Of a stretch of DNA of 63,574 nt, positions 44,363-61,244 are shown piece after piece; positions within the stretch are counted from its first letter, which is position 1; each line of letters begins with the position of its first letter. The translations under genes and the position numbers were made by a program. The stretch spans positions 1-63,574 of the forward strand of contig NZ_BMJM01000014.1 of assembly GCF_014643455.1 (NCBI RefSeq), read 5' to 3'. The notes below the pieces were generated by a model that searched no databases, was not told where the DNA came from, and worked only from the letters and a program-made list of their open reading frames with translations. The DNA is from Sandarakinorhabdus glacialis. Lineage in GTDB: Bacteria > Pseudomonadota > Alphaproteobacteria > Sphingomonadales > Sphingomonadaceae.

Positions 44363-45067
44363 TCAGGCGACTTCTACGACGCGCTCCGGTTGCGGGTCGC
44401 GGAGTGAGTAGCCACGGCCCCAGACGGTTTCAATGCAGCCGCTGGCTGGCGCGCCGGCGAGGTGAAGCTTTTTGCGGAGCTTGCAGATGAAGACGTCGAT
44501 GATCTTCAGTTCGGGCTCGTCGCGGCCGCCATACAAATGGGTAAGAAACATTTCCTTGGTCAGGGTCATGCCCTTGCGGAGCGAAAGCATTTCCAGAATG
44601 GCATATTCCTTGCCAGTCAGGCCGACGCGGCGACCTTCGACTTCGACGGTGCGCGCGGCGAGGTCGATCGAGACAGGACCAGTAACGATCAGCGACTGGG
44701 CATGGCCCTGGCTGCGCCGGACGAGCGCATGGATGCGTGCCATCAATTCGGATTTGTCGAAGGGCTTGGTGACGTAATCGTCGGCACCGGCGCCAAAACC
44801 CGTCACCTTGGTGCCGGTCTCGCTGTCGCCCGAGAGGATCAGGACCGGCGTATTGATGCGAAGCATCCGCAATCTTTTCAAGACTTCGTGGCCATGTAGA
44901 TCGGGGAGCGTCAAGTCGAGCATGACGACATCGAATTCATATGTACGCGCATATTCCAGCGCCGTTTCACCCGTGGCGGCGGTTTCATGCTCGAAACCCG
45001 CTTCATCGAGCATCAACTCGACGGAACGGGCCATGGCCCTGTCATCCTCGATCAGCAAAACACGCAT
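44363..45067 (-). CDS. ctrA: Cell-cycle response regulator CtrA
   Basis: The 234-residue OmpR-type regulator starts [20 protein letters not shown], with phospho-accepting Asp 51 ([17 protein letters not shown]) and [20 protein letters not shown]. The winged helix has [20 protein letters not shown] and [14 protein letters not shown]. These are CtrA-specific motifs. CtrA controls division, motility and DNA methylation genes in alphaproteobacteria. It is preceded on the same strand by a SciP-like gene. Confidence 0.95.
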
Positions 45068-45228
45068 CGCACCAGTCTCCGGGGATCCCGTACTGAAGTC
45101 GATCGCACAACCGACCTCGCCAGTCCCGAAATCATTCAACCCCTTTTGTTCGTAAAGGTAAAGCGGCCTGCGACGGAAACTTTCGATTGTATGTTGAAAT
45201 GAGTATGACCCGGTTGGAAAGGGTGCGT

Positions 45229-45519
45229 TCATCGTTCGCGGCCTTCGAACACCGAACGGTAGATCTGCACCCGGGTGACGCGAAGGCCCGGCACGCCAGC
45301 GCATTCGACAGCGCGTTCCCATAGCCGGAGTTCGGCCTCGCTGATGCGATAACGCGCACAGGCATGGGCCCGGGAAATTCGCCCATCGTTGATCGCAGCA
45401 AGGATTTGGGCTTTGCGGCTGGCGACCCAGCGCGTGGTATTCGGAGAGGGCAGGTCGTCGAACAACGCAGCCGGCATGATCTCGGCGAATTCAGCCGGTG
45501 TTCCTGGCCTGCTTGCCAT
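45229..45519 (-). CDS. sciP: SciP-like DUF1153 helix-turn-helix protein
   Basis: The 96-residue protein has the DUF1153 core [20 protein letters not shown], then [20 protein letters not shown] as the helix-turn-helix, and [20 protein letters not shown]. In Caulobacter, SciP is a DUF1153 protein that inhibits CtrA-dependent transcription. Here it lies directly upstream of ctrA on the same strand, 160 bases apart. An N-terminal extension ([16 protein letters not shown]) precedes the core. It is divergent from mnmA. Confidence 0.8.
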
Positions 45520-46793: not shown

Positions 46794-46852
46794 GTCAATT
46801 TCTTGACACGGGTTCGTCAGAATTTTGACGGACGGGGTGTCGGTTTATTGAC
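46794..46852 (+). promoter_or_regulatory. Three evenly spaced GTC-N8-GAC dyads, probable enhancer sites
   Basis: GTCAATTTCTTGAC (46794-46807), GTCAGAATTTTGAC (46816-46829) and GTCGGTTTATTGAC (46839-46852) share GTCRR-N4-YTGAC or close. Their starts are 22 and 23 bases apart, two helical turns, so all face the same side. They lie 54-112 bases before the -24 element, the usual place for a bacterial enhancer-binding protein. The first begins 5 bases after the mnmA stop. Confidence 0.75.
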
Positions 46853-46905
46853 ACCTGGTTGGGCCGGTCAAGCGTTTCTCCTGCGCGTATCGGGGTAACG
46901 GCCGG

Positions 46906-46922
46906 TTGGCACGCACCTTGCT
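46906..46922 (+). promoter_or_regulatory. Sigma-54 promoter of the flagellar operon
   Basis: TTGGCACGCACCTTGCT matches YTGGCACG-N4-TTGCW at every defined base. It ends 11 bases before the ATG of the activator gene at 46934, so the transcript would have a nearly absent leader or translation could start from a leaderless message. Confidence 0.88.
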
Positions 46923-46933
46923 AGGCAGGGGGT

Positions 46934-48157
46934 ATGAACAACTCATCCGCCGCCAAGATTATTCCGAAGCCGACAGGCCGGAGTGCCAGCGTCGATTGGC
47001 TTCCGGGACTCTCGGCGATCGATCTTGGGGATACGCTGCTGGTTTGCGACGGGTCGCAGCCGGGGTGGCGACATGTCGCCCTGGCGCCAGCGGCGCGGTC
47101 GCGGGCTGTCGTCCAGCATAACCGGCTCGACCTCCGGGTGGCCCCGGGCGACCATGAATTTGCGCTGGCGTTGATCGCCGCGTTTATCGCCCGCGGCGAG
47201 GCACCGACGGCAGCGGCGCAGTCGAGCCGCGACCTGCTGGCGCTGGCGGCGCGCGTCGCACCCCGCGACATCTCGATCCTGATCGAAGGTGCCACCGGCA
47301 CCGGCAAGGAGGGGTTGTCCCGCCTTGTCCATGACTTGTCCCCTCGCCGCGACTCACCCTTTGTCGCGGTCAACTGCGCCGCGCTCCCCGAAGCGATGTT
47401 GGAAGCAGCATTGTTCGGACACGAGCGCGGCGCCTTTACCGGTGCTGTCGGCGGTGGTCGCGGCCTGTTCCGCGCTGCTGACGGCGGGACGTTGCTGCTC
47501 GATGAAGTCAGCGAGATCCCGTTGGCATTGCAGGCGAAGTTGTTGAGGGCGTTGCAGGAACGTGAAGTGCTGCCGATCGGCGCGGTCAAGCCCGAGAAGG
47601 TCGATGTGCGGATCATCGCGTGTGCGAACCGCGATTTGGCCGGCGAAGTCGCGGCCGGGCGGTTCCGCGCAGATCTTTTTTATCGGCTGGCGGTGTTTCC
47701 GCTGCGGACGCAGACGCTCGCCGAGCGGCCTCAGGATGTCGTCGCGATTGCCGCGCATTGGTTGCTGAAGGCCGCTGCCGATACGGTGTGCTGGCCAACT
47801 GCAGCTGCGTTGGCGCGCCTGTCGGCGCACCCCTGGCCGGGGAATGTTCGCGAGCTCGGGAATGTGCTCGACCGGGCATTGGTGCTGTGCGACGGCGACC
47901 GGATCGAGGTCTCGCACCTGATCTTCGATCGGCTTGCGCTGCCCGATGAAGATTCTGCGGCGTTGCCGGGGCTGGTGCGGCATCATGAGGCGCGGGTGAT
48001 CCGCGACGTGCTGGCGGAGACGCGGAGCCGGCGTGCGGCGGCGGAGCGGCTGGGGATCAGCGAGCGGACCCTGCGGTATAAGATTGCGGCGATGGGGGCA
48101 GGGCGGCCGATCGTCCAGCACGCCGGTCAATCGGGCGCGCAGAACACGGTCCAGTAA
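46934..48157 (+). CDS. FlbD-like sigma-54 activator heading the flagellar operon, without receiver domain
   Basis: The 407-residue activator has an N-terminal region (1-100) that is not a normal receiver: it lacks the acidic pocket and phospho-Asp. The AAA+ domain has GATGTGKE (119-126), GAFTGA (166-171, sigma-54 contact), LLLDEVSE and a Fis-type helix-turn-helix (RRAAAERLGISERTLRYKI). It is probably always active or controlled by a partner (a FliX-like protein is not seen here). The stop is immediately followed by the fliE ATG. A sigma-54 promoter and three dyads precede it, which suggests autoregulation. Confidence 0.85.
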   Translation: MNNSSAAKIIPKPTGRSASVDWLPGLSAIDLGDTLLVCDGSQPGWRHVALAPAARSRAVVQHNRLDLRVAPGDHEFALALIAAFIARGEAPTAAAQSSRDLLALAARVAPRDISILIEGATGTGKEGLSRLVHDLSPRRDSPFVAVNCAALPEAMLEAALFGHERGAFTGAVGGGRGLFRAADGGTLLLDEVSEIPLALQAKLLRALQEREVLPIGAVKPEKVDVRIIACANRDLAGEVAAGRFRADLFYRLAVFPLRTQTLAERPQDVVAIAAHWLLKAAADTVCWPTAAALARLSAHPWPGNVRELGNVLDRALVLCDGDRIEVSHLIFDRLALPDEDSAALPGLVRHHEARVIRDVLAETRSRRAAAERLGISERTLRYKIAAMGAGRPIVQHAGQSGAQNTVQ

Positions 48158-48487
48158 ATGTTGCCGCCGGTCGATACGCGGTCGGTGCTGGCGCTACGCG
48201 CGCAGATACTCGAGCGTAGCAGCACCCTGTCGCAAGTCGCTGGAAACGCCGCGCGCGTCGATGCGCCGGCGCGGTTCGATACGGCGATGGGCGATGCCCT
48301 GAAGGCGGTCAGCAATATCCAGGAGAAGGCGGGTGGCGCGGCGACGGCATATGAACGCGGCGACAGCCATGACCTGGCCAGCGTGATGATCGCGCGGCAA
48401 AAGGCGTCGATCGCGTTCGAGGCGACGCTGCAGGTCCGCAATCGGCTGCTAGGCGCCTACAAGGACGTGATGAGCATGCCGCTGTGA
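48158..48487 (+). CDS. fliE: Flagellar MS-ring/rod adapter FliE
   Basis: The 109-residue protein is hydrophilic and alpha-helical, with SNIQEKAGGAATAYERGDSH and DLASVMIARQKASIAFEATL, then QVRNRLLGAYKDVMSMPL, the FliE C-terminal signature. It joins the MS ring to the rod. It starts right at the stop of the activator gene and precedes fliF by 13 bases. Confidence 0.9.
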   Translation: MLPPVDTRSVLALRAQILERSSTLSQVAGNAARVDAPARFDTAMGDALKAVSNIQEKAGGAATAYERGDSHDLASVMIARQKASIAFEATLQVRNRLLGAYKDVMSMPL

Positions 48488-48500
48488 TCGGCGGCGTATC

Positions 48501-50063
48501 ATGAACGAGCAGATTGCGCTCTTGCCGGCGCTGGTGCGCGATGCCGGCGCGTCGTGGCCGGATCGGGCGCGAGCGTTGGTTGCAAGCCCGGCGGTGGTGC
48601 GGGCGCGGCCGGCGATCCTGGTGGCGGCGGCGATCATCGCGGTGCTGGCGGTGGGCATGATGCTGCGGTCGCCCGACTGGCGGCCACTGTATGGCGAAAT
48701 GTCGGACGGCGATAAATCTGCGGTGCTGGCGGCGCTCCAGGGGGGCAATTATGCGGCTCGCATCGACCCCGATACCGGTAGCGTCGAGGTTGCGGCAGGC
48801 GATGTCGCGGCGGCACGGATCCTGCTTGCCGGGCAGGGATTGCCCAAGTCCGCCATGGCGATAGACCCGGTTGGTGACATGCCATTGGGCCTGAGCCGAG
48901 CGGTCGAGGCGGCGCGTTTGAAGAATGCCGCGTCGAGCGAACTGGCGGCGTCGATCGAGGCGATCGACGGCGTCAAGCGGGCGACCGTGCACATCGCGTT
49001 GCCCGAGCCGAGCGTGTTCGTGCGGGACAAGGCGCCGGCGAGTGCGTCGGTGTTCGTGACGCTGGCGCCGGGGCGGGTGCTGGGCGAGGCGCAGGTGCGA
49101 GCAATTGTGTGGCTGGTGAGTTCGTCGGTGGCGGGACTGGCGGCGGACAAGGTCAGCGTCGTCGACCAGTCTGGAGCGCTGCTGTCGGCGGGGACCAGCG
49201 CCGGTGAGGCGCAGCAGCTGGGGTATCAGGTAAAGCTGGAATCGATGGTGCGCGAGCGGCTGTTCAAGCTGCTGACGCCGCTCATTGGTGGTGGCAAGTT
49301 TACCGCAGAAGTTGCTGCGGACGTTGATTATAGCCAGAGCGAGGCGTCGTCGGAGCGCTATGCGCGCGATGGCGCGGTGCTGCGTAGCGAGGCCGCCAGT
49401 CGGGCACTGGATTCGAGCCCGGCGCCGGCGCGGGGAATTCCCGGAGCGCTGTCCAACACGGCACCGGCGGCGGCGCAGTTGACGGCGACGCCGCCTGTTG
49501 CGCAGACGGCGGCAGTGGCTGCGTCGGCGCCGGTCGTGACCAGCGAGACGACGAACCGCGCCTGGGAGATCGGCAAGGACGTGTCGGTGACGCGGGGGAC
49601 GGTACCGCGGTTGCGGCGGCTGTCGGTGGCCGTGGTGATCGACAAAGGGGCCCTGGGCGGGGCGCAGGACTTGGCGGCATTGACACGGATCGTGCGCGGG
49701 GCGGTGGGATATGATGCGGCGCGGGGCGATGTCGTCGAGGTGCAGACCCGGCGCTTTGCGGTCCCGGCGGCCGAGCCGGCGCCGGCCTGGTATGAGGCTC
49801 CGGCAGTGCGGGACTATGCGCCCTGGGGTGTGGTGGCGATCGTCGTGCTGGTTGGCGGTATCGCGGCATTTGTCGTGATGCGGCGGCGCAGGTTGGCTGC
49901 GGCGGCGATCGTGCCCGCGATCGTCGACGGCGGCGATCTCGCGCCGGTGGCGGACCAGGCAATCGATTATTCGGTCAAGCTGGGCACCACGCGCGGACTG
50001 GTTCACGACGATGCCGACCGGGCGACGGCGGTGGCGCGGCAGATGCTGGCGGCGGCGACGTGA
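48501..50063 (+). CDS. fliF: Flagellar MS-ring protein FliF
   Basis: The 520-residue protein forms the MS ring in the inner membrane. Membrane helices lie at about 34-54 (PAILVAAAIIAVLAVGMMLR) and about 435-457 (WGVVAIVVLVGGIAAFVVM). The periplasmic domain has WRPLYGEMSDGDKSAVLAAL and SVFVRDKAPASASVFVTLAP. The C-terminal cytoplasmic tail for FliG binding is present (AVARQMLAAAT). Its stop overlaps the fliG GTG. Confidence 0.93.
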   Translation: MNEQIALLPALVRDAGASWPDRARALVASPAVVRARPAILVAAAIIAVLAVGMMLRSPDWRPLYGEMSDGDKSAVLAALQGGNYAARIDPDTGSVEVAAGDVAAARILLAGQGLPKSAMAIDPVGDMPLGLSRAVEAARLKNAASSELAASIEAIDGVKRATVHIALPEPSVFVRDKAPASASVFVTLAPGRVLGEAQVRAIVWLVSSSVAGLAADKVSVVDQSGALLSAGTSAGEAQQLGYQVKLESMVRERLFKLLTPLIGGGKFTAEVAADVDYSQSEASSERYARDGAVLRSEAASRALDSSPAPARGIPGALSNTAPAAAQLTATPPVAQTAAVAASAPVVTSETTNRAWEIGKDVSVTRGTVPRLRRLSVAVVIDKGALGGAQDLAALTRIVRGAVGYDAARGDVVEVQTRRFAVPAAEPAPAWYEAPAVRDYAPWGVVAIVVLVGGIAAFVVMRRRRLAAAAIVPAIVDGGDLAPVADQAIDYSVKLGTTRGLVHDDADRATAVARQMLAAAT

Positions 50064-51052
50064 CGGGGGTTCTTTCGGGCGCACAGAAATGTGCGATCCT
50101 GGTTCTGTTGCTCGAGGAGCCGCAAGCGGCGGACATGCTGCGGCGGATGGATGCTGCCGAGGTACGGGCGGTCGGCGAGGCGATGCTGTCGGTGGCTGAG
50201 ATCGAGCCGGCGGCAATCGATGCGGTCCTGGGCGAGTTCATCGAGCGGACGCGCGGCGTCTCGGCACTCGACAGCCAGGGGCGGCAGGTGCGGGCAGTGT
50301 TGTCGCGTGCGCTGGGAACACCGCGGGCGGAGCGCGTGATCGACCATATCGGTCCGCCAGCTGCGGCGCGGCGGTTTGCGGGGCTCGACTGGCTCGACGC
50401 GGGGACGATCGCGGCGTTGCTGGCGGACGAGCATCCGCAGGCGGTGGCGGTGGTGCTGGCGCATCTGCCCGAGACCGTCGCGGCCGCGGTACTGGATGGG
50501 TTGCCCGAGGCGATGCAGGGCGACCTGGTGTTGCGGCTGGCGACGTTGAAGCCGGTGGCGCCGGCGGTGATCGCCGGGCTTGAGGCTGACCTGGACGCCA
50601 AGCTTTTGGCGCAGGACCAGCCTGTCAACAACGCGTCGTTGGCGGGGCCCGGCTTTACGGCCCGGATGGTAAAACTATCAGCTAATAAGAAGGGTTTGCT
50701 AGCAGCGCTTGCAGAAATGGATGAGACGCTGGCGGGTGAGATCGCGGCGCAGCAATTCGTCTTTGGCGACATGATATTGCTATCGCTCAAGGATGTTCAA
50801 CTCGTGTTGCGCGAGGCCGATCCGCAGGGTTTGGCGGCGGCATTGAAGGGTGCCGATGCCGAACTGCGGGCGTTGATATTCTCGGCGATGTCGAGCCGGG
50901 CGGCGACGCAGTTGCAGGATGACCTGGCCGAGCGTGGGCCGATGAAGCGCGCCGAGGTTGAGGCGGCACAAGCCGAGATCTGCGGGCTGGTGCGGCGGCT
51001 GGGCGATAGCGGGGCGCTGATGCTGCCGGGGGCGGTGGGCGCGTATGTCTGA
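50060..51052 (+). CDS. fliG: Flagellar motor switch protein FliG
   Basis: The 330-residue rotor protein has GAQKCAILVLLLEEPQAADM at the N-terminus, EHPQAVAVVLAHLPETVAAA (the EHPQ motif) and a C-terminal charged domain (DMILLSLKDVQLVLREADPQ, AQLQ-like ATQLQDDLAERGPMKRAEVE). The torque helix is recognisable but less charged than in E. coli. It overlaps fliF and the fliH-like gene. Confidence 0.92.
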   Translation: MTGVLSGAQKCAILVLLLEEPQAADMLRRMDAAEVRAVGEAMLSVAEIEPAAIDAVLGEFIERTRGVSALDSQGRQVRAVLSRALGTPRAERVIDHIGPPAAARRFAGLDWLDAGTIAALLADEHPQAVAVVLAHLPETVAAAVLDGLPEAMQGDLVLRLATLKPVAPAVIAGLEADLDAKLLAQDQPVNNASLAGPGFTARMVKLSANKKGLLAALAEMDETLAGEIAAQQFVFGDMILLSLKDVQLVLREADPQGLAAALKGADAELRALIFSAMSSRAATQLQDDLAERGPMKRAEVEAAQAEICGLVRRLGDSGALMLPGAVGAYV

Positions 51053-51554
51053 GGGATTGGCTGGACTTTTGAGTGCCTTGCAACCGGTGGCAGAGATGCC
51101 GGTGGATCTTGAGGCCATTCGGGCCGGGGGCTGGGCGGACGGTTTTGCGGCTGGGGAGGCGCGGGCCGAGGCTGGGTTGGCGCCGGTGCGAGAGCGGATG
51201 GCGGCGGCGGTGGAGGGGCTGGAGGCGGCGTGCCGGGTCGATGTCGATCGGGTGCGGCCGGTGGTCTTGGGGCTGGTCCGACGCTTGGTCGAGGCTGTTC
51301 TGCAGCGAGAATTATCGTTGAATGATAGCGTGATGGATCGACTGGTTGACTCTGCGCTTGAAGCTGTGCGGCCGGGGGAAGGGGCGGTTTTGCGGGTGCA
51401 TCCGGTGACTTTGGCGGGGTTGGGGGTGCTGGCGATCGCGACCGAGGCAGATGCGGGGATGGCGCTCGATGCTGTGGTGGTGACGGGGACGGACTTCGTG
51501 ATCGAGGTTGGGCTTTCGGCGCGACTGGCTGAAATCATGGAGGAAATGTCATGA
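51045..51554 (+). CDS. fliH: FliH-like export ATPase regulator
   Basis: The 169-residue protein has a helical N-terminal part rich in Gly-X-X-X-Gly or Ala patterns (GWADGFAAGEARAEAGLAPV) and the C-terminal FliH/HrpE domain (VRPVVLGLVRRLVEAVLQRE, LRVHPVTLAGLGVLAIAT). It holds FliI at the base. It is shorter than the E. coli protein (about 230). Position between fliG and fliI supports the call. Confidence 0.8.
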   Translation: MSEGLAGLLSALQPVAEMPVDLEAIRAGGWADGFAAGEARAEAGLAPVRERMAAAVEGLEAACRVDVDRVRPVVLGLVRRLVEAVLQRELSLNDSVMDRLVDSALEAVRPGEGAVLRVHPVTLAGLGVLAIATEADAGMALDAVVVTGTDFVIEVGLSARLAEIMEEMS

Positions 51555-52873
51555 GCGTGTCGGCGGCTATGGCTTCGGTGCTGGATAGCCTGGTGGTGCC
51601 CGACCTGCCGGTTCGGCGTGGAGGGCGGGTTGTCGCGTTCGACGGGACGACAATCGAGGCGGTCGGGATCGAGGCGCTCGTCGGGGGGCGCGCGATTGTC
51701 GGCCAGGATCGCCAAGCCGCCGAGATTATTGGGTTTCGTGATGGGCGGGCGTTGTTGATGGGGCTTTCGCCATTGGCCGGCATCGTGCCGGGGGCGATCG
51801 TCCTAACCGATAGCCGACTGGATGAAGTGGCGGTTGGTTCGGCGCTGCTGGGGCGGGTGATCGACGGGCTTGGGCGGCCTTTGGATGGGTTGGGGCCGGT
51901 CGGTTCGGGGGCGGTTCCGGGTATGCGGCGGGGTGTTTCGCGCCCGCAGATGGGACCTGGGGAGCGTTCCAGGGTCAGTGAGGTTCTGGCGACCGGGGTT
52001 CGTGCCATCGATGGCCTGCTGACGCTGGGTCGCGGGCAACGGGTCGGCATCATGGCGGGGACAGGTGTGGGCAAATCAGTGCTGCTCGGCCAGGTCGCGC
52101 GCTGGGCCGCGGCCGATGTCGTGGTGATGGCGCTGATTGGCGAGCGCGGCCGCGAGATCACCGATTTCATCGAGACCGAACTGTCGGGTCCGGCACGGGC
52201 GCGGACGGTGACGGTGGCGGTGCCGGCGGCGGATGCGCCGCTGCTGCGGGTGCGCGGCGCCGAGCGGGCGTTCGCCATTGCCGAAGGGTTTCGCGACGAG
52301 GGCAAGCATGTGCTGCTGATCCTCGACAGCTTGAGCCGGGTCGTTCACGGCGCGCGCGAGGTGGCGCTGGCGCGCGGCGAGAATGGCGGGGCGCGCGGCT
52401 ATCCGCCGTCGGCGCTGGCGTTGATCGCGGCGCTTGCGGAGCGTGCCGGGGGTGACCGGCGCAGCGGCGGGGCCATTACCGCGATCGTGACGGTTTTGTC
52501 GGAGGATGGCGGCAATGACCCGGTCGTCGACGCGGCGCGCGGGGTTCTCGACGGGCATATATTGCTCAGCCGGCGGCTGGCGGGGCGGGGGCAGTTTCCG
52601 GCGATCGACCTGGGGGCCTCGGCGAGCCGGGTGATGGCCGACGTCTGTACGCCCGAGCATCTGGCGGCGGCGGCGCGGTTTCGGCGGCTGGCTTCGCTTG
52701 TCGAGGACAATCGCGACCTGGTTCTGATGGGGGCCTATTCGCCCGGCGCCGATGCCGAGCTCGATGCGGCGCTGGCGTTGGCTGGCCCCCTTGAGCGCTA
52801 CCTCGTGCAGCCGCGTGCCGATCGGATCGGCTTTGAGGCGGCGCGGGATGCGCTGGTGCAGCTCGTCGCATGA
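51551..52873 (+). CDS. fliI: Flagellum-specific ATPase FliI
   Basis: The 440-residue F1-beta-like ATPase has Walker A GTGVGKS (residues 170-176), IGERGREITDFIETELSG, LLILDSLSRVVHGAREVALA (Walker B and onward) and GSITAIVTVL-type GAITAIVTVLSEDGGNDPVV. It powers unfolding of export substrates. It is coupled to its neighbours by 4-base overlaps. Confidence 0.95.
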   Translation: MSVSAAMASVLDSLVVPDLPVRRGGRVVAFDGTTIEAVGIEALVGGRAIVGQDRQAAEIIGFRDGRALLMGLSPLAGIVPGAIVLTDSRLDEVAVGSALLGRVIDGLGRPLDGLGPVGSGAVPGMRRGVSRPQMGPGERSRVSEVLATGVRAIDGLLTLGRGQRVGIMAGTGVGKSVLLGQVARWAAADVVVMALIGERGREITDFIETELSGPARARTVTVAVPAADAPLLRVRGAERAFAIAEGFRDEGKHVLLILDSLSRVVHGAREVALARGENGGARGYPPSALALIAALAERAGGDRRSGGAITAIVTVLSEDGGNDPVVDAARGVLDGHILLSRRLAGRGQFPAIDLGASASRVMADVCTPEHLAAAARFRRLASLVEDNRDLVLMGAYSPGADAELDAALALAGPLERYLVQPRADRIGFEAARDALVQLVA

Positions 52874-53220
52874 GCAGGCGCGAGGAGATGATGGACCGGG
52901 TGATCCGGGTGCGGCGGGTACGGGAGCGGTTGGCGCTGGCGGCGCTGGGGCGGGTCCAGTCGCGGCAGGTCGCGGAGGCGGCGTTGCTGGCACGGGTCGG
53001 GTCGTTGCTCGGCGGCGTGGCAGCAGGATTGATGGCGGCCGATGCGGCTTCGGCGCGGGCGCGGGCCGATGCGGTGCTGGGGAGGTTGGCGGACGATGTC
53101 GGGCAGCGGCTGGCGGTGACGCGGGAGGACCAGCAGCGACTGGCGCAGGGGTTGGCGCGGGCGCGGGCGGCGGTCGATGCGGCGGTGGCGCGGCGGTCTG
53201 GTTCGGGAGATGAATTGTGA
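52870..53220 (+). CDS. fliJ: FliJ-like export chaperone
   Basis: The 116-residue, entirely helical Ala/Arg-rich protein has long coiled-coil potential (residues 10-110). It lacks a strict signature, but size, coiled-coil and position between fliI and fliK fit FliJ, which couples FliI to FlhA. It overlaps both neighbours by 4 bases. Confidence 0.65.
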   Translation: MSRREEMMDRVIRVRRVRERLALAALGRVQSRQVAEAALLARVGSLLGGVAAGLMAADAASARARADAVLGRLADDVGQRLAVTREDQQRLAQGLARARAAVDAAVARRSGSGDEL

Positions 53221-55088
53221 GCGATATGCTGGGGTTGCCGGGCGGGGGGGTGGCGGTGGCGGTTGCCGTGCCGGCGGCGGTGCGCGCGCCGGGCGGTGCC
53301 GGGAGCGGTGCGGGATTTTCCCTAGCGATGGCGACGGCGCGGGAGGAGCCCGCCGAGGGGCGGGCAGTGGCAGCGGCGATGCTGTGGCGGGTGATTGATG
53401 GGCCGTCTTTGGCGGGTGCGGGAGACGATGACGAGGACGTGATTGGTTCGGGTGTGTCGGGGGAGGGTGTCGGCGTGGGTGCGAGCGGGATGGAGTTCGT
53501 GGCGGGGTCGATTCCGGGGGGTGGCGCTTTATTGGTCGGGCGGGAGATGGGCCCCGGCCTTCGCCGGGGTGACGGGGAAAGTGGGGCGGCGGCGGTTGGG
53601 GTGGGTGACCTGGCAGGCGCGGGCGGCTTGAGGGAGGTAGGTTTGTCGGCGGAGCCGGCTTTGTTGGCGAGGATGGGTTTGTCGGCAAGGACGCCTTTGT
53701 TGGTGAAGACGGCGTTGTCGGCGAAGACGCCGTTGTTGGCGCAGAAGGGCGGCAGTGATCCCGGGGCGGGTATTGTCGGGGAGACTGGCGGTTCGCGCCC
53801 GGTTTTGAGTGAATGGGCGATTGAGGATCGTGCGGATCTGAGCCTGACTTTGGCGCGGGGGCGTGACGGGCGCGGGGGCGTCGTATCGGGTGCAAAGATC
53901 GTTGTCGGGGCGGGGGCGCTTTCGGCGGGTGCCGGGGTGCAGGGGCGAGACGGGACCGGTTCTGCCGATGCGGGTGGGGGGCTTGGGTTTGGGCTCGGTG
54001 GGTCGGGGTTTCTGGGTGGGATTCCGGTTGGGGGTGAGGGTCGTGGCGTTGCCGGCTCTGGGCCGATTAGTGCGGGGATTTCGGGCGGCGGTGCGGCACG
54101 CGGTGGCACGCTTGAGAGCGTTCGCGAAGCGCCGCGGACCGGCGCTGACAGTGGAATGCCTGGGAGTGCGGCGGCTGCGCCGACCGGGTTTGCAGCGCCG
54201 ACTGGATTTGCAGCGCCGACTGGATTTGCAGCGCCGACTGGGGCTGGGATTGGACGCATTTCGGTTTCTTATGAGGAAGGTGGCGAGATCGCCGCGAAGC
54301 CGGCTGTGGGGGTGGCTTCCGGCGATGGCGCGGCCAGCAGTGGGGGCACGGTCGTTGGCGGGGTTGCGGGCCGGATCGAGGTCGCCGGCGGTGGTGGCGC
54401 GAGTGGCGGTGCGGGGGCCGGCGGCCGTGGCTTTGCCGGACCGGGGGCGCAAGCTGCGGACGGCGCGGCGCCTGGTCTGGAACTGGAATTGGCCGGGCTG
54501 AGCGGTTTTGGCGATGCGGCACCAGGATCGGTGGATGCGGGGCCACGGGGATTGCCAGTGTTCGGGTCGGCGGCGGTTTTGGCGGCGGGTGCCGCAGGCA
54601 ATTTTTCGGCTGGGGTAAGCCTCGGCGCGAGCGGGGCCGAGAGCGCGCCGGTACTGGTGGCGACCGAGGCTTTGGGCGACGTGGCGATCGGGTTGGAAGG
54701 CGGGCCGCGGGACTTGCGGGTTTCGGTGTCGGCTTCGGCAGCGGCGGCGGGTTTGCTGGCGGGGGAGGCGCCGCGGCTGGCGGCCGAACTGGCGGCGGCG
54801 GGACTGCGGTTGCAGTCGCTCGATATCGGCGGGGTGCGGGCTGATTTTCGCGATGGGTCGGCTGGCGGTTCGGGCGCTGCGTCTGGCGGCGGGGGCGGAG
54901 CCGGGTTTGGCGGCGGGGTGGCGAGCGGCCAGACAGGCGGGGGTGCGGGCGGGGGTGCAGGCGGGGGGGCGGCCGGTGGATCGATGCGGGATGGTGGGCA
55001 GCGCGTGTCGGCCAGCGCACCTGCTGTCGATGCGATCGCTTCGATGCCGGCTGTGCTGCGGGCGCGGGGGGCGGATCGTTATGCTTGA
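53217..55088 (+). CDS. fliK: FliK-like hook-length control protein with internal repeats
   Basis: The 623-residue Gly/Ala/Ser-rich protein lies in the fliK position. Only the last part (about residues 485-570, DLRVSVSASAAAAGLLAGEA to LRLQSLDIGGVRAD) resembles the folded FliK C-terminal domain (Flg_hook). The rest is low complexity. It contains a REP-derived peptide (MGPGLRRGD, 53542-53573), an 18-base imperfect repeat (AKTPLL type, 53641-53745) and an 18-base repeat PTGFAA (54180-54241). The N-terminal two thirds appear free to vary. Confidence 0.65.
   Translation: MSDMLGLPGGGVAVAVAVPAAVRAPGGAGSGAGFSLAMATAREEPAEGRAVAAAMLWRVIDGPSLAGAGDDDEDVIGSGVSGEGVGVGASGMEFVAGSIPGGGALLVGREMGPGLRRGDGESGAAAVGVGDLAGAGGLREVGLSAEPALLARMGLSARTPLLVKTALSAKTPLLAQKGGSDPGAGIVGETGGSRPVLSEWAIEDRADLSLTLARGRDGRGGVVSGAKIVVGAGALSAGAGVQGRDGTGSADAGGGLGFGLGGSGFLGGIPVGGEGRGVAGSGPISAGISGGGAARGGTLESVREAPRTGADSGMPGSAAAAPTGFAAPTGFAAPTGFAAPTGAGIGRISVSYEEGGEIAAKPAVGVASGDGAASSGGTVVGGVAGRIEVAGGGGASGGAGAGGRGFAGPGAQAADGAAPGLELELAGLSGFGDAAPGSVDAGPRGLPVFGSAAVLAAGAAGNFSAGVSLGASGAESAPVLVATEALGDVAIGLEGGPRDLRVSVSASAAAAGLLAGEAPRLAAELAAAGLRLQSLDIGGVRADFRDGSAGGSGAASGGGGGAGFGGGVASGQTGGGAGGGAGGGAAGGSMRDGGQRVSASAPAVDAIASMPAVLRARGADRYA
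53542..53573. repeat. REP element inside fliK, in frame
   Basis: GGGAGATGGGCCCCGGCCTT continues to CGCCGGGGTGAC. The 32 bases are identical to 55138-55169 in the fliK-fliL gap, and the core also occurs at 55204-55229. It encodes REMGPGLRRGD within fliK. Confidence 0.8.
54180..54241 (+). repeat. 18-bp tandem repeat inside fliK
   Basis: The unit CCGACTGGATTTGCAGCG occurs three and a half times (first copy CCGACCGGGTTTGCAGCG), coding PTGFAA repeats. The copies are nearly identical, so the array is young and may vary in number between strains without a frameshift. Confidence 0.8.
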
Positions 55089-55137
55089 GCGGGGGAATGC
55101 TTGGCAGATCGGGCCTGGTGCTGATTTCTGGGAGAGC

Positions 55138-55265
55138 GGGAGATGGGCCCCGGCCTTCGCCGGGGTGACGAAATTGAACATCACCCGCCTCTGTCCGGGA
55201 AATCGGCCCCGGCCTTCGCCGGGGTGACGAAATTGGGCGTCTCTCGCCTCTCCCCGAACGGGAGA
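55138..55265. repeat. REP cluster between fliK and fliL
   Basis: Two copies of a GGCCCCGGCCTTCGCCGGGG hairpin unit, each followed by TGACGAAATTG, then CTCTCGCCTCTCCCCGAACG forming another hairpin. This fills most of the only long gap (217 bases) inside the flagellar operon. It may attenuate transcription of fliL onward or stabilise the upstream message. Confidence 0.75.
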
Positions 55266-55305
55266 GGGGATTTGTCGATCTTGTTTGGAATTGTGAGGGC
55301 GGATC

Positions 55306-55809
55306 ATGAACAGTGCGGTTGTCGAGGGCGGCAAGACGGGGAAATCTAAGGGTGGCGGCGGGCTTGGCCGTGCGCTGGTGATCGGGGCGGCGTTCGTCGC
55401 CGGGGCGGCGGCGGGGGGGGTTGGCGGGGCGATCGGGGCCAGCCGGCTGCTGCCTGCCGCAGGGGGGCATGCGGTGGCGGAGGCCGCCGCGGCGCCGGTC
55501 GAATATGTCGAGATCGATAATGCCTTTACGTCGAACCTGGTCGACACCGGGCGGTATCTGCAGGTGCGGCTTTCGGTGGCGACGACCGGGGGGGGGCCGG
55601 TGGTGGCGGCGATCGGCAAGCACAAGCCGGCGCTCATCTCGGCGGTCCTGTCGGTGCTGGGCGAGCTTTCGGAGATCGATGTCGCCGACCGGCCGGCGAA
55701 GGACAAGCTGCGGACGCGGTTGAAGGATGCCGTCAACGAGACGCTGCGGTCGCGCGGCCAGGTGCCGGGCATCGACGAAGTGTTCTTTACCAGCCTGGTG
55801 GTCCAGTGA
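55306..55809 (+). CDS. fliL: Flagellar basal body-associated protein FliL
   Basis: The 167-residue protein has a Lys-rich start, one membrane helix (LVIGAAFVAGAAAGGVGGAI, about residues 25-45) and the periplasmic FliL domain (NAFTSNLVDTGRYLQVRLSV, KPALISAVLSVLGELSEIDV, GIDEVFFTSLVVQ). It supports stator function. The stop overlaps the GTG of fliM. Confidence 0.88.
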   Translation: MNSAVVEGGKTGKSKGGGGLGRALVIGAAFVAGAAAGGVGGAIGASRLLPAAGGHAVAEAAAAPVEYVEIDNAFTSNLVDTGRYLQVRLSVATTGGGPVVAAIGKHKPALISAVLSVLGELSEIDVADRPAKDKLRTRLKDAVNETLRSRGQVPGIDEVFFTSLVVQ

Positions 55810-56833: not shown

Positions 56834-57045
56834 TGGGCAATTGGGTGGAGAAGTTGCGGGCGAAGCTGCCGCGCGGGTTGGGCGACGCACCGCGGTTTGC
56901 CAAGGTGGTGCAGGCACTGCCGCTGGGGCCGGGGAGCCGGTTGCTGGTGGTCGAGTTCGGCGGGCGGCGATTGCTGATCGGGCAGGCGCGGACGGGGTTG
57001 GTGCGGCTGGGAGAGGCCCAAGGCGCGGATCTCGGCGGTGAATGA
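56830..57045 (+). CDS. fliO: Short FliO-like protein without membrane helix
   Basis: The 71-residue protein lies between fliN and fliP, the normal fliO place. It has VKVVQALPLGPGSRLLVVEF-type core (KVVQALPLGPGSRLLVVEFG) and GRRLLIGQARTGLVRLGE, like the cytoplasmic domain of FliO. The usual N-terminal membrane helix is missing. Its stop overlaps the fliP start. Confidence 0.6.
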   Translation: MMGNWVEKLRAKLPRGLGDAPRFAKVVQALPLGPGSRLLVVEFGGRRLLIGQARTGLVRLGEAQGADLGGE

Positions 57046-57709
57046 GGTGCCCTCGCTGACGGCTTCGTTGCCGACACTGTCGTCGTCGATCCAGATCCTG
57101 ATGCTGATGTCGGCGCTGACGCTGTTGCCGGCGGCGCTGTTGATGATGACGTGTTTTACGCGGATCGTCATCGTGCTGGCGATCCTGCGCCAGGCTTTGG
57201 GGCTGGGGCAGAGCCCGCCGAACCAGCTGCTGGTCGGCATGGCGCTGTTGATGACGCTGTTCGTGATGAAACCCAATTTCGACCGGATTTACGATGGAGC
57301 CTATGCGCCGATGGTGGCCGGCGCGGTGGGGGCGGATGTCGCCTTGGCGCGCGCGGGGGCGGAGTTGAAGGACTTCATGCTGGCGCAGACGCGCGAGGCA
57401 GATCTGCGCAAATTTGCCGAGATCTCGGGGACGGGGCCGTTTGCGGCGCCGCGCGATGTGCCGTTGACCGTGGTGCTACCGGCGTTCGTGGCGAGCGAGT
57501 TGAAGACGGCGATGCAGATCGGCTTCGTGGTCTATCTGCCGTTCCTGGTGATCGACCTGATCGTGTCGAGCATCCTGATGTCGCTGGGCATGATGATGGT
57601 GTCGCCGGCGACGGTGAGCCTCCCGGTGAAGCTGGCGCTGTTCGTTTCGATCGACGGCTGGACGCTGGTGCTGGGGTCGCTGGCGAAGAGTTTCGGGGGT
57701 GGCGGGTGA
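57038..57709 (+). CDS. fliP: Flagellar export gate protein FliP
   Basis: The 223-residue membrane protein has SSIQILMLMSALTLLPAALL, MTCFTRIVIVLAILRQALGL, QSPPNQLLVGMALLMTLFVM and PAFVASELKTAMQIGFVVYL, the FliP signatures. No cleavable signal peptide is obvious beyond the first helix. It starts at GTG 57038 within the end of fliO. Confidence 0.94.
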   Translation: MNEVPSLTASLPTLSSSIQILMLMSALTLLPAALLMMTCFTRIVIVLAILRQALGLGQSPPNQLLVGMALLMTLFVMKPNFDRIYDGAYAPMVAGAVGADVALARAGAELKDFMLAQTREADLRKFAEISGTGPFAAPRDVPLTVVLPAFVASELKTAMQIGFVVYLPFLVIDLIVSSILMSLGMMMVSPATVSLPVKLALFVSIDGWTLVLGSLAKSFGGGG

Positions 57710-58011
57710 TTTATGCCGTGGCGGGCGTGGTGGGCGACATGCCCGATGACCGGATGCTGGTGGCGATTACACGGGCGGCGGTGATCCTGTTCGCCGAGAG
57801 TACGGCGGTGTTCCTGGTGCCGATTTTGGTGGTCGCGGTGGTGGTGGGGCTGGTGCAGACCATCTTGTCGGTGTCGGAGACGAGCCTGTCGTTCTTGCCC
57901 AAGCTGCTGACATTGGTGGCGGTGATGGCGATTGCCGGCGACAGCGTGATGCGGGCGCTGGGGGATTTCATGGAGAGCGGCCTGCTCGACATGGTCGGGG
58001 CGATCCGGTGA
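57706..58011 (+). CDS. fliQ: Flagellar export gate protein FliQ
   Basis: This is a two-helix export gate protein: MLVAITRAAVILFAESTAVF, LVPILVVAVVVGLVQTILSV, SETSLSFLPKLLTLVAVMAI. GTG 57706 overlaps the fliP stop and would give 101 residues. ATG 57739 (MPDDRMLVAI) gives the usual 90 and is a good alternative. It overlaps fliR. Confidence 0.92.
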   Translation: MIYAVAGVVGDMPDDRMLVAITRAAVILFAESTAVFLVPILVVAVVVGLVQTILSVSETSLSFLPKLLTLVAVMAIAGDSVMRALGDFMESGLLDMVGAIR

Positions 58012-58730
58012 ATATCGAGGTGCCGGCCTTTGACGGGTTGGCGATGATGACGCGGTTCACGCTGGCCGGCGTGCGGCCGATGGTGATGCTGGCGCTGTTG
58101 CCGGGATTGGCGGGGGCGATGCTGCCGTGGCGGGCGCGGTTGGCGGTGGCGGCTTCGCTGTCGGTGTTTACGGCGTTCGGGCCGGGAGCGGTGGAGCTGA
58201 TGTTTGCGATGCTGCCGGGGGAGGTTGTGGCGGGGCTGCTGGCGGGGATGGCGGTGGCGCTGGCGTTTGCGGCGGCGCAGATGGCGGGCGAGGTTTGCGC
58301 CAATATCATGGGGTTGGGGTTTGCCAGCCTGGCGGGGGCGGGGGGGAGCGTGTCGGTGGTCGGCGGGCTGTTCGGGGCGCTGATGTGGTGTGCGTTCCTC
58401 GGGAGCGACGGGTTCTTGTGGCTGTTCGCCGCGATCGTGGAGGGGCAACGGGTTTTGCCGCCGGGCGGGGTCAGTCTGGAACTGCTGGCGAGTTATGGCG
58501 CAGTGATGTTTGCCGGGGGGTTGCGGATGGCTTTGCCGGTGGTGGCGCTGTTGTTGCTGGGGAATTTGCTGGTGGCGGTGGCTTCGCGGTCGGCGCCGCA
58601 GCTCGGGGCGATGTCGGTGGGGCCGGCGGCATTGCTGCTGGCGTTCGTGTGGGCGCTGCCGTTGCTGTTCGAAGGGTTGCTGGGGCGAGCGGTGGTGACG
58701 CTTAACGCGGCGCAGGGGCTGTTGTTGTGA
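58008..58730 (+). CDS. fliR: Flagellar export gate protein FliR
   Basis: The 240-residue protein has six hydrophobic segments, with VRPMVMLALLPGLAGAMLPW, MAGEVCANIMGLGFASLAG (conserved GxxxG-type region) and GALMWCAFLGSDGFLWLFAA. It forms part of the export gate with FliP and FliQ. It starts at GTG 58008 and overlaps flhB by 4 bases. Confidence 0.9.
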   Translation: MNIEVPAFDGLAMMTRFTLAGVRPMVMLALLPGLAGAMLPWRARLAVAASLSVFTAFGPGAVELMFAMLPGEVVAGLLAGMAVALAFAAAQMAGEVCANIMGLGFASLAGAGGSVSVVGGLFGALMWCAFLGSDGFLWLFAAIVEGQRVLPPGGVSLELLASYGAVMFAGGLRMALPVVALLLLGNLLVAVASRSAPQLGAMSVGPAALLLAFVWALPLLFEGLLGRAVVTLNAAQGLLL

Positions 58731-59824
58731 GTGACGCCGAAAAGACGCTGCCGGCGACGCCGCGGCGGCGGGAGGAAGCGCGTAAACAGGGGAATGTGTG
58801 GCAGCCGCGCGAGCTGGGGCCGGCGGTGGCGGTGGGGGTGGCGGCGCTGGCGGCGATGATGATGGGGCCGGGGTTGTGGGGGGCGCTTGGCGGGTATTTG
58901 TCGGCGGCGCTGGCGGTGCCGATGGAGGGACTGCCGGTGACCGAGATGGCGGGGATGGTGCCGGCGCGGTGGCCGTTGGGGCTGGCGGCGGCGGTGATGC
59001 TGGCGAGCGGTGGGCTGTCGGTGGCGGCGGTGCGGCATGTGACGATGGATAGCCTGGCGCCGAAATGGTCGCGGGTCAGCCCGGTGAAGGGGCTGCAGCG
59101 GATATTTTCGATGAGTGGGCTGATGGGGGGTGGGACGGCATTAATGAAGCTGGCGGCGGTGGCGGGGGTTGCGATGGTGGTGGTGGTGCCGATGGTGCGT
59201 GAGCTGGCGCATGTCGAGGACGTCGGCGGGATCGGTGGGGCGGTGGTGCGGGTCCTGGCGGCCTCGGCGTTGATGTTGCTGCTGGTGGCGGTGGTCGATG
59301 GGGCGATCTCGTGGATGTTGCGCGAGAAGAAGCTGATGATGTCATTGGATGAGGTGAAGCGCGAAAGCCGGCAGAATGATGGGGCGCCCGAGGTGAAGGC
59401 GGCCATTCGCCGGGCACAGTTTGCGGCGTCGAAGCGGCGGTTGCAGACGTCGCTGGCGGAGGCTTCGGTGGTGGTGGTCAATCCGGTGCATTTTGCGGTG
59501 GCGCTGCGGTATCGGCCGGGGATCGATGCGGCGCCGGTGGTTATCGAGAAGGGGCGGCTGGAGACGGCACTGGCGATCATCGCGGTGGCGGGGGAGATGG
59601 CGATCCCGGTGGTGCGGACGCCCAGGTTGGCGCGGGCGTTGTTCTTTACAGCCAAGATCGGCCAGCCGGTACGCGAGGAATTGTTCAATGCGGTGGCGAC
59701 GATCCTGGCGTTCGTGATGCGGGTCGATGCGGAGACGGTCGCCAGGGCGGCGCCGGGCGTATTCGTGCCGCCGGCGTTCGATTTCGACGAGCATGGTGAG
59801 CGGCGCAAGGCGGGGGCGGCTTAG
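58727..59824 (+). CDS. flhB: Flagellar export switch protein FlhB with NPVH cleavage site
   Basis: The 365-residue protein starts EKTLPATPRRREEARKQGNV, has four membrane helices (about 35-210) and the cytoplasmic domain LREKKLMMSLDEVKRESRQN. The self-cleavage site is NPVH at residues 252-255 (VVNPVHFAVALRYRPG), whereas NPTH is the rule. The Asn and Pro needed for the cut and the His remain. Confidence 0.93.
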   Translation: MSDAEKTLPATPRRREEARKQGNVWQPRELGPAVAVGVAALAAMMMGPGLWGALGGYLSAALAVPMEGLPVTEMAGMVPARWPLGLAAAVMLASGGLSVAAVRHVTMDSLAPKWSRVSPVKGLQRIFSMSGLMGGGTALMKLAAVAGVAMVVVVPMVRELAHVEDVGGIGGAVVRVLAASALMLLLVAVVDGAISWMLREKKLMMSLDEVKRESRQNDGAPEVKAAIRRAQFAASKRRLQTSLAEASVVVVNPVHFAVALRYRPGIDAAPVVIEKGRLETALAIIAVAGEMAIPVVRTPRLARALFFTAKIGQPVREELFNAVATILAFVMRVDAETVARAAPGVFVPPAFDFDEHGERRKAGAA

Positions 59825-59837
59825 CCGTAATCAGCAT

Positions 59838-61244
59838 ATGGCTTCGATAGTTTCCTCGTTGGGCGCCGGGTCGGGGATCGATACCAAGGCGCTGATCGAC
59901 GAGCTGGTGGCGGCGGAAAAGGCGGCGCGGACGACGCCTTTGACGACGCGAACTGTCGTGCTCGATGCGCAGATCTCGGCGTTGGGGCAATTGCGATCGG
60001 CGATGCAGACGATTGCCGGGTCGCTCGATGCGCGGGTCAAGGACGGCACGCTGGGGTTGGTGCCCGTGAGCAACAGCGCGGCGGTGGCGATCGAGCGGGT
60101 TGGCACCGGGCCGGCGACGGCGTTCGTGTCGAGCATCAGCGTCAACCGGCTGGCGAGTGCGCAGGTGCTGACGGCGCCGGCGCTGACCGCGGGTGATGCG
60201 CCGGTCGGGCTGGGGACGCTGACGATCCAGATGGGGACGCGGACCGACCTGGGCGGCGGGGATTTCAGCTTTGCCGGGGCGGGGGCGGCGTTCGACGTGG
60301 TCATCGGTGCGAGCAACAACAGCCTGGTTGGTTTGCGCGATGCGATCAATCGCTGCGGCGCGGGGGTGAGTGCGGCGATCGTCAGCAACAATGGCACGGC
60401 GACGCTGTCGCTGCGCGGGGCGGACGGGACGGCGGGGGCCTTCATCGTCAGCGCGGCCGAGGATGCGGGGGCGCCGGGGTTGGCGCGCTTTGCCTATACG
60501 CCGGGGGCTCGGCCAATGACGCTGGCGGGGGCGGCGGGCAATGCGGAGTTGAGCCTCGACGGGATTGCGGTCAGCCGGGCGAGCAATGTCATCGATGATT
60601 TGGTGACGGGGGTACGGTTGCGTCTGGCGAAGGCCGATCCGGCGGTGGTTGTGACGGTCAGCGCGTCGCGCGATGGGGCGGCATTGGCGGCGACGATCAG
60701 CGATTTCGCGGTGACGCTCGGCGCGATGCGCGGGCTGATCGGGGATTTTCGCAAAGGCGCGGTCGGGACCGATGCGCCGGGGGCGCTGGCCAATGACCCG
60801 ACGGCGCGGGCGATGGACCAGCGGATTGCCGGGCTGGCGGCGGCGGCGATCCCCGAGGCGAATGGCTTGCGGCTGCGCGACCTGGGGGTAAATATCAATC
60901 GCGATGGCAGCATTACCTTCGATGCGGCGCGCTTCGCCGCGCTGTCGCCAACGCGGTATGCCGACGCCGAGGCGCTGTTGAAGACACTGGCGGCGCCGTC
61001 CCTGTCGACCCAGCCGAACCGGCTGCAGTCGATTGCGGCGATGGCGACGCCGGCGACGGCGGGGTTGACGCGGCGGCGGGGTGGGCTGGCGACGGATCTG
61101 GCCAAGGTCGATGTGCGGCTGGCGACGTACCGGGCGACATTGGTGCGGCAATATTCGGCGATGGAGCGGATGGTGGCGGCGTCCAAGGCTGTGCAGGCGC
61201 AGTTGGAGCAGCAGATTGCGGCGTGGAATAACCAGGGGAATTAG
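59838..61244 (+). CDS. fliD: Flagellar filament cap protein FliD
   Basis: The 468-residue protein starts MASIVSSLGAGSGIDTKALI, the FliD N-terminal signature, then DELVAAEKAARTTPLTTRT. The middle has SVNRLASAQVLTAP, and the C-terminal FliD_C part has LRLRDLGVNINRDGSITFDA and ALVRQYSAMERM-like VRQYSAMERMVAASKAVQAQ. ATG 59838 lies 13 bases after the flhB stop. It is the last gene of the flagellar operon here. Confidence 0.92.
   Translation: MASIVSSLGAGSGIDTKALIDELVAAEKAARTTPLTTRTVVLDAQISALGQLRSAMQTIAGSLDARVKDGTLGLVPVSNSAAVAIERVGTGPATAFVSSISVNRLASAQVLTAPALTAGDAPVGLGTLTIQMGTRTDLGGGDFSFAGAGAAFDVVIGASNNSLVGLRDAINRCGAGVSAAIVSNNGTATLSLRGADGTAGAFIVSAAEDAGAPGLARFAYTPGARPMTLAGAAGNAELSLDGIAVSRASNVIDDLVTGVRLRLAKADPAVVVTVSASRDGAALAATISDFAVTLGAMRGLIGDFRKGAVGTDAPGALANDPTARAMDQRIAGLAAAAIPEANGLRLRDLGVNINRDGSITFDAARFAALSPTRYADAEALLKTLAAPSLSTQPNRLQSIAAMATPATAGLTRRRGGLATDLAKVDVRLATYRATLVRQYSAMERMVAASKAVQAQLEQQIAAWNNQGN

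Follow-up and report, generated by a model that had tools for sequence, protein, structure and literature searches.

A probable FleQ-type box array before the fli operon of Sandarakinorhabdus glacialis, and a proposed FleQ-FleR cascade in the Sphingomonadaceae

Introduction

The contig NZ_BMJM01000014.1 of Sandarakinorhabdus glacialis (Sphingomonadaceae; assembly GCF_014643455.1), analysed here over 63,574 nucleotides (the window), carries a flagellar cluster in which three short dyads stand ahead of a sigma-54 promoter. The question raised by this locus is which protein the dyads serve: the sigma-54 activator encoded by the first gene of the operon, as proposed in an earlier note on this DNA, or a second activator encoded at the opposite end of the cluster, at 61414-62412 on the reverse strand.

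A two-tier order of flagellar regulators is known from the FleQ/FleSR and FlrA/FlrBC systems (PMC3930126, PMC7064773; here and below, statements from the literature refer to passages of the papers cited). In Vibrio, FlrA switches on flrBC and the early genes, and FlrC the middle genes, in a sigma-54 cascade (PMC3930126, PMC7064773), while in Pseudomonas aeruginosa fleS and fleR, a second-tier pair, are among the early genes dependent on FleQ and sigma-54 (PMC10723142, PMC3930126). The core of the FleQ box, as published, measures 14 bp and is formed by the inverted repeats GTCAAT and ATTGAC with a two-base gap (PMC10723142). In Rhodobacter (Cereibacter) sphaeroides, FleQ and sigma-54 drive fleT-fliEFGHIJ (PMC7277832, PMC11999139), and in Caulobacter FlbD is the activator of the rod and hook genes (PMC7064773). 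A Caulobacter-like CtrA/FlbD flagellar hierarchy has been assigned in a Sphingomonas paper (PMC8921679), a putative fleQ is mentioned in passing in a Sphingopyxis paper (PMC7083833) and the word fleQ occurs in another paper (PMC7713065). FleQ boxes or a FleQ/FleR cascade in sphingomonads were not found in the titles and abstract openings of the top literature matches, a search with subscription journals mostly outside its scope.

The Box Array and Its Promoter

Three GTC-N8-GAC dyads, to which no strand is assigned, start at 46794, 46816 and 46839, with start-to-start distances of 22 and 23. Compared with the FleQ consensus GTCAAT-N2-ATTGAC, box 1 (46794-46807, GTCAATTTCTTGAC) matches 11 of the 12 fixed bases, box 2 (46816-46829, GTCAGAATTTTGAC) 9 and box 3 (46839-46852, GTCGGTTTATTGAC) 10; their scores are 19.7, 18.7 and 17.3 bits, respectively, on a matrix trained on relatives only (35 sites from 15 loci, window excluded), and the best other 14-mer in the window reaches 14.1 bits. 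The promoter at 46907-46921 on the forward strand (TGGCACGCACCTTGC) is an exact match to TGGCAC-N5-TTGC; box 3 starts 68 bp before it and ends 54 bases ahead, and box 1 starts 113 bases ahead. The dyads, their spacing and the perfect promoter thus stand as the earlier note had described them. The dyads are probably FleQ boxes, and as such putative docking sites for the FleQ-type protein whose gene lies at 61414-62412 (-).

Taken singly, GTC-N8-GAC sites barely exceed their chance count in the window (27 against 19.1 expected, a number equalled in 6 of 100 shuffles). Three of them within 60 bp, however, appeared in none of 1000 first-order Markov simulations, so that the array exceeds chance. 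In the genome as a whole, the pair pattern TTGAC-N5-15-GTC-N8-GAC was counted, with 22 occurrences in total, three of which involve the array.

At this promoter (46907-46934) and at another one of the same genome (C1:577999-578026) the C of the -12 element is followed 13 bases later by the A of the start codon ATG. In both cases the expected transcription start would adjoin the start codon, possibly reflecting leaderless mRNAs or wrong start codons.

Two Activators Without Receiver Domains

The promoter lies before the gene for P0001 (46934-48157, +; 407 aa), which is followed on the same strand by the rest of the driven operon, namely fliE, fliF, fliG, a gene with no family, fliI, another gene with no family, a fliK-like gene below the Pfam cut-off and fliL (48158-55809), and further on by fliP, fliQ, fliR, flhB and fliD (57038-61244, +). 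As the earlier note had recognized, the first product is a sigma-54 activator devoid of a receiver: the Pfam search finds in P0001 an AAA+ domain and a Fis-type HTH (HTH_8 at 352-385), with the recognition helix region LGISERTLRYK, and no receiver. Among solved structures a PDB search places Vibrio FlrC first, with 249 bits against 199 for FleQ, and in a tree of 48 activators, from which L085 and L087, two of the seven strong activators of the own genome, were left out, P0001 falls in the FleR/FlrC clade with support 100/99, adjoining the FlbD clade. The same clade holds a FleT-like Marivivens protein without HTH; P0001 keeps its HTH, whereas FleT is marked by having no DNA-binding domain, and against the NCBIfam FlbD model NF050807 P0001 scores 284 bits with a cut-off of 750. 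Two tree rows labelled fleT (L139, L143) group with FleQ instead; the label is wrong, and most likely they represent the FleQ-type proteins of their loci. A FliE match was found just downstream in 104 of 110 related loci (30 from the family and 80 named), including Pseudomonas, Shewanella, Alteromonas and Marinobacter, and this position just before fliE we take to be the place of fleR/flrC. The receiver domain is missing in P0001 and in two sphingomonad relatives, and present in all three gammaproteobacterial relatives tested. By domains, nearest structure, tree and synteny P0001 is a FleR/FlrC-type protein and a probable second-tier regulator.

The second activator, P0002 (61414-62412, -; 332 aa), has FleQ as its nearest solved structure (278 bits), with FlrC at 210 bits and FlrA as the second-best molecule after FleQ. 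Its HTH reads QRTTLIEKMRR, where FleQ has RRTTLVEKMRK, so that the FleQ recognition helix (RTTLVEKMR) is recognizable, and in the tree it groups with five gammaproteobacterial FleQ rows with support 99/96. No match to the N-terminal receiver-like domain of FleQ was obtained with PF06490 or PF00072, the AAA+ domain beginning at residue 15, and for this reason P0002 is called FleQ-type, of the FleQ lineage, rather than a full FleQ. At the c-di-GMP contacts of FleQ the pairwise alignment gives R144A, R151A, R185Q and E330H, with R334 kept; since three of nine sphingomonad rows retain R at the R185 position, a loss of c-di-GMP control in P0002 is only a guess. As both P0001 and P0002 are without receivers, control of either by phosphorylation would be unlikely. 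Both helix types, FleQ and FleR, are carried in one locus in many gammaproteobacterial loci. From structure search, HTH, tree and the co-occurrence described below, P0002 is the probable binder of the boxes.

Co-occurrence of Boxes and Promoter With FleQ

A FleQ-type HTH profile built from 19 HTHs splits 199 family genomes cleanly, with 59 at 54 bits or more and the rest at no more than 45.7 bits or without a match at 1e-9. A fleR-type gene (match of at least 280 bits) is present in 104 genomes, 102 of which were scored, G022 and G097 having the gene at a contig end. Before this gene, promoter and box occur together in 33 of 35 FleQ-positive and in 2 of 67 FleQ-negative genomes (Fisher value 5e-22, kinship ignored), and the sigma-54 promoter alone (at least 12 of 13 positions) in all 35 of the former and 2 of the 67 latter; the two criteria are not independent, because the FleQ-negative genomes also have no promoter. 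The first 81 genomes alone had given 25/26 against 1/55, before 21 more, including G159, were added. The matrix sites had been donated by eleven FleQ-positive genomes plus G106 and G159; among the FleQ-positive genomes that gave none, 22 of 24 have promoter and box. A tree was made of the fleR-type proteins of the first 81 genomes, with 78 included and three missing. It requires 7-8 changes of the FleQ label, at least four of them forced by well-supported branches and G106 accounting for one, and the idea that the co-occurrence was inherited from a single evolutionary event is therefore rejected.

The exceptions are few. The FleQ-negative G106 (L221, of the same genus as S. glacialis) has its array beside truncated fleR-type and fleQ-type genes placed tail to tail. 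The other one, G159, carries both promoter and boxes; a FleQ-type HTH was looked for without success in this genome, which is 84% complete in 720 contigs and whose genus includes G003 and G097, both with FleQ. Among the FleQ-positive genomes, G051 and G109 have the promoter and no box above 11 bits, and G024 and G170, from the genus of G109, owe their positive score solely to boxes lying 311 and 326 bp away, the one at 326 bp being weak.

Two side observations concern these loci. In G106 the array is intact though no FliE or FlhB match lies nearby and no flgB match was found. In five of seven FleQ-negative genomes examined (L214, L220, L264, L270 and L274), the fleR-type gene has a divergent neighbour that appears flagellin-like, judging by eye from the first letters of that gene; before fleR these five have no sigma-54 promoter with a score of 12.

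The flgB Promoter

From 116 flgB-positive genomes, 50 were taken (the 30 best matches and 20 chosen by FleQ/FleR status); L330 (short contig, no promoter scored), L331 (FleQ status unclear) and L349 (short contig) were left out. FleR status was taken from the fleR-type matches listed, which score either at least 280 bits or no more than about 232. A sigma-54 promoter was found in all 47 scored flgB upstream regions. FleQ boxes accompany it in 12 of the 15 genomes that have FleQ and lack FleR, in 2 of 22 with both and in none of the 10 with FleR only (p=1.8e-5 for the first two groups, kinship ignored). The 12 box-bearing regions span seven genera and their sites lie outside the matrix training; three of the 15 flgB promoters are without a box, and the two genomes with both activators and a box, G024 (186 bp) and G170 (165 bp), belong to one genus. 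Boxes can therefore exist without a P0001-type protein, and they follow FleQ. A count of such arrays at other sigma-54 promoters had been suggested in the earlier note. FleQ boxes recur at flgB in these relatives; in the own genome a GTC-N8-GAC site lies within 220 bp upstream of only one of 21 exact TGGCAC-N5-TTGC promoters, the one at 46907-46921 itself. As to FleQ boxes at the own flgB promoter, a candidate that was rejected, the search gave only two weak matches (10.6 and 9.2 bits), downstream inside flgB.

The FleR-type protein goes with a different site. All tetranucleotide dyads with gaps of 0-12 were counted in the 160 bp before the flgB promoters, with 20 letter-shuffled sets as control. 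CGGC-N8-GCCG and GGCA-N6-TGCC are each found in 31 of 32 FleR-positive and 0 of 15 FleR-negative regions, the best count in the shuffles being 5. The consensus is CGGCAA-N4-TTGCCG. At least two such dyads occur in 22 of the 31 flgB regions, 18-23 bp apart in 21 of those 22, and the own flgB promoter has the dyad CGGCCAGAACTTGCCG 92 bp ahead, at C1:578103-578118. This type of dyad, which we take to resemble the ftr element of Caulobacter, is most likely the site of the FleR-type protein, as judged from the co-occurrence. None was found before the fleR-type gene in the window; since it is present there in 8 of 55 FleQ-negative and 2 of 26 FleQ-positive relatives, autoregulation by the FleR-type protein may occur elsewhere.

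Geometry of the Sites

The distances between the proximal FleQ box and the promoter of the fleR-type gene concentrate at a single phase of the 10.5-bp helix, with R=0.74 for n=27, a value that none of 20000 random sets reached; when each genus or locus contributes a single distance, p=1.5e-4 (n=20). These distances, like all those of the phase tests, were transcribed by hand; weak proximal boxes were included, and the boxes at 311 and 326 bp and the sub-threshold site of G053 were excluded. The flgB boxes, which had no part in the training, agree with the phase fixed beforehand (p=9e-4 for n=9, each distance unique within its genus). A common phase is likewise seen for the FleR-type dyads (R=0.78 for 31 distances, without a random control; a third G129 dyad at 28 bp and G021 were excluded), and the two kinds of site have centres that coincide to about 1 bp. 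The helical phasing claimed in the earlier note stands for the proximal site relative to the promoter across relatives; between sites it is only approximate, 22.5 bp being 2.1 turns, and spacings of 16-18 and 30-34 bp also occur between boxes in relatives. In five gammaproteobacterial loci with a FleQ-type HTH, box-promoter offsets of 48, 58, 68, 69 and 72 were found, counted whichever gene follows the promoter. At the cut-off used, the box/promoter pair was found in no Pseudomonas locus and in few other gammaproteobacterial loci, and the matrix is therefore sphingomonad-biased.

Other Regulators in the Neighborhood

With regard to CtrA control of fleR, TTAA-N7-TTAA is absent from 81 fleR upstream regions, and TTAA-N8-TTAA, a candidate CtrA site, is found near the fleQ start in 3 of 14 cluster copies, including that of the window. 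A CtrA-like response regulator is encoded at 44363-45322 (-), 1.5 kb before the array; its best NCBIfam match is CtrA, with 339 bits and a cut-off of 350. The window also contains, at 25506-28987, prsK and prsR, a PEP-CTERM two-component pair above the NCBIfam cut-off. In the own genome a dyad TGT-N11-ACA (often TGTCGG-N5-TTTACA or alike) lies 68-120 bp before 7 of the 21 exact sigma-54 promoters (L008, L009, L012, L015, L019, L023 and L024), with 0.74 expected from letter shuffles, and it may be a candidate site of PrsR. Contig C16 was considered as a second flagellar cluster and rejected, as no flagellar family was found among its 10 proteins tested.

Discussion

The sites, the promoters, the lineage of both activators and the co-occurrence of each type of site with its activator were computed; binding, ATPase action and the order of expression would, as far as these sequences indicate, be as follows. 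P0002 would bind the three boxes as dimers, assemble an AAA+ ring and, by looping, remodel the sigma-54 RNA polymerase at 46907-46921. By this action the operon of the FleR-type activator and fliE-fliF-fliG would be switched on, and the FleR-type protein would then act at the CGGCAA-N4-TTGCCG-type dyad upstream of the flgB (rod/hook) operon and its sigma-54 promoter. With the box following FleQ and the dyad following FleR, most likely the array serves as a FleQ enhancer rather than for autoregulation by the first gene, and the whole reading, in which P0002 drives the operon of the FleR-type activator and the latter acts at flgB, is held here with considerable confidence.

The alternative that survives best, and that is compatible with this explanation, is a mixed site, at which FleQ-type and FleR-type proteins would both act, for instance as a hetero-oligomer. 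In C. sphaeroides a hetero-oligomer of FleQ and FleT changes promoter choice (PMC7277832, PMC11999139), and the clade of P0001 includes a FleT-like protein without HTH; P0001, however, retains an HTH and is associated with a separate dyad at flgB, and the boxes need no P0001 in FleR-negative genomes. This arrangement appears rather unlikely. More improbable still is autoregulation of the operon through binding of P0001 to the array, as the earlier note had supposed; its idea of an enhancer array for the sigma-54 promoter of the fli operon stands, but the part given to the first gene does not, the boxes in relatives tracking the second, FleQ-type activator. Although the P0001 gene adjoins the array and encodes a sigma-54 activator with an HTH, 65 of the 67 family genomes that have the first gene and in which the FleQ-type HTH was not found show neither the promoter nor the promoter with box there, 12 of 15 genomes without a P0001-type protein have boxes at flgB, and the P0001-type goes with the different dyad, of which the window shows none ahead of the P0001 gene. 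That the array is a chance or non-functional repeat can practically be dismissed, since, even if single sites are near their chance count, the triple is absent from the 1000 simulations and is conserved, and lost together with FleQ, in relatives.

The FleQ enhancer proposed here can be set beside the known systems. With P. aeruginosa it shares the 14-bp GTCAAT/ATTGAC palindrome and early genes, under FleQ and sigma-54, that include a second-tier regulator. Unlike here, where three boxes stand in a row, flagellar operons typically have one FleQ box (PMC10723142); moreover, P0002 is without the N-terminal receiver-like domain, four of the five c-di-GMP contacts checked are changed, and no sensor kinase gene lies between the promoter and the FleR-type gene. 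The fleT-fliEFGHIJ operon of Rhodobacter, FleQ-driven there, likewise joins a second sigma-54 activator to fli genes, but FleT has no DNA-binding domain (PMC7277832, PMC11999139), whereas P0001 keeps one and has its own putative dyad. The likeness to Vibrio lies in the two-tier sigma-54 cascade and in the structures, FlrC being nearest to P0001 and FlrA second-best for P0002; yet FlrC is a phosphorylated response regulator whose partner is the kinase FlrB (PMC3930126, PMC7064773) and P0001 has no receiver. As for the rod and hook activator FlbD of Caulobacter, it belongs to the clade next to P0001, which nevertheless remains far below the NCBIfam FlbD cut-off and is without a receiver domain.

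For the Sphingomonadaceae as a whole, a FleQ-to-FleR cascade of two receiver-less activators seems likely, in which the boxes would lie at fleR if FleR is present and at flgB if it is absent, box and promoter would vanish together with FleQ, and both dyads would occupy about the same helical face and distance. It offers a testable two-tier sigma-54 flagellar cascade for a large alphaproteobacterial family, against the CtrA/FlbD scheme proposed there (PMC8921679), together with a helical-phase rule for sigma-54 enhancers that is readable from sequence, and it raises the question of what controls activators without receiver domains. The repeated loss of either activator would provide ready-made replicates of the movement of enhancer sites between promoters and, if true, the cascade of the Sphingomonadaceae would be a natural experiment in the rewiring of a bacterial enhancer network.
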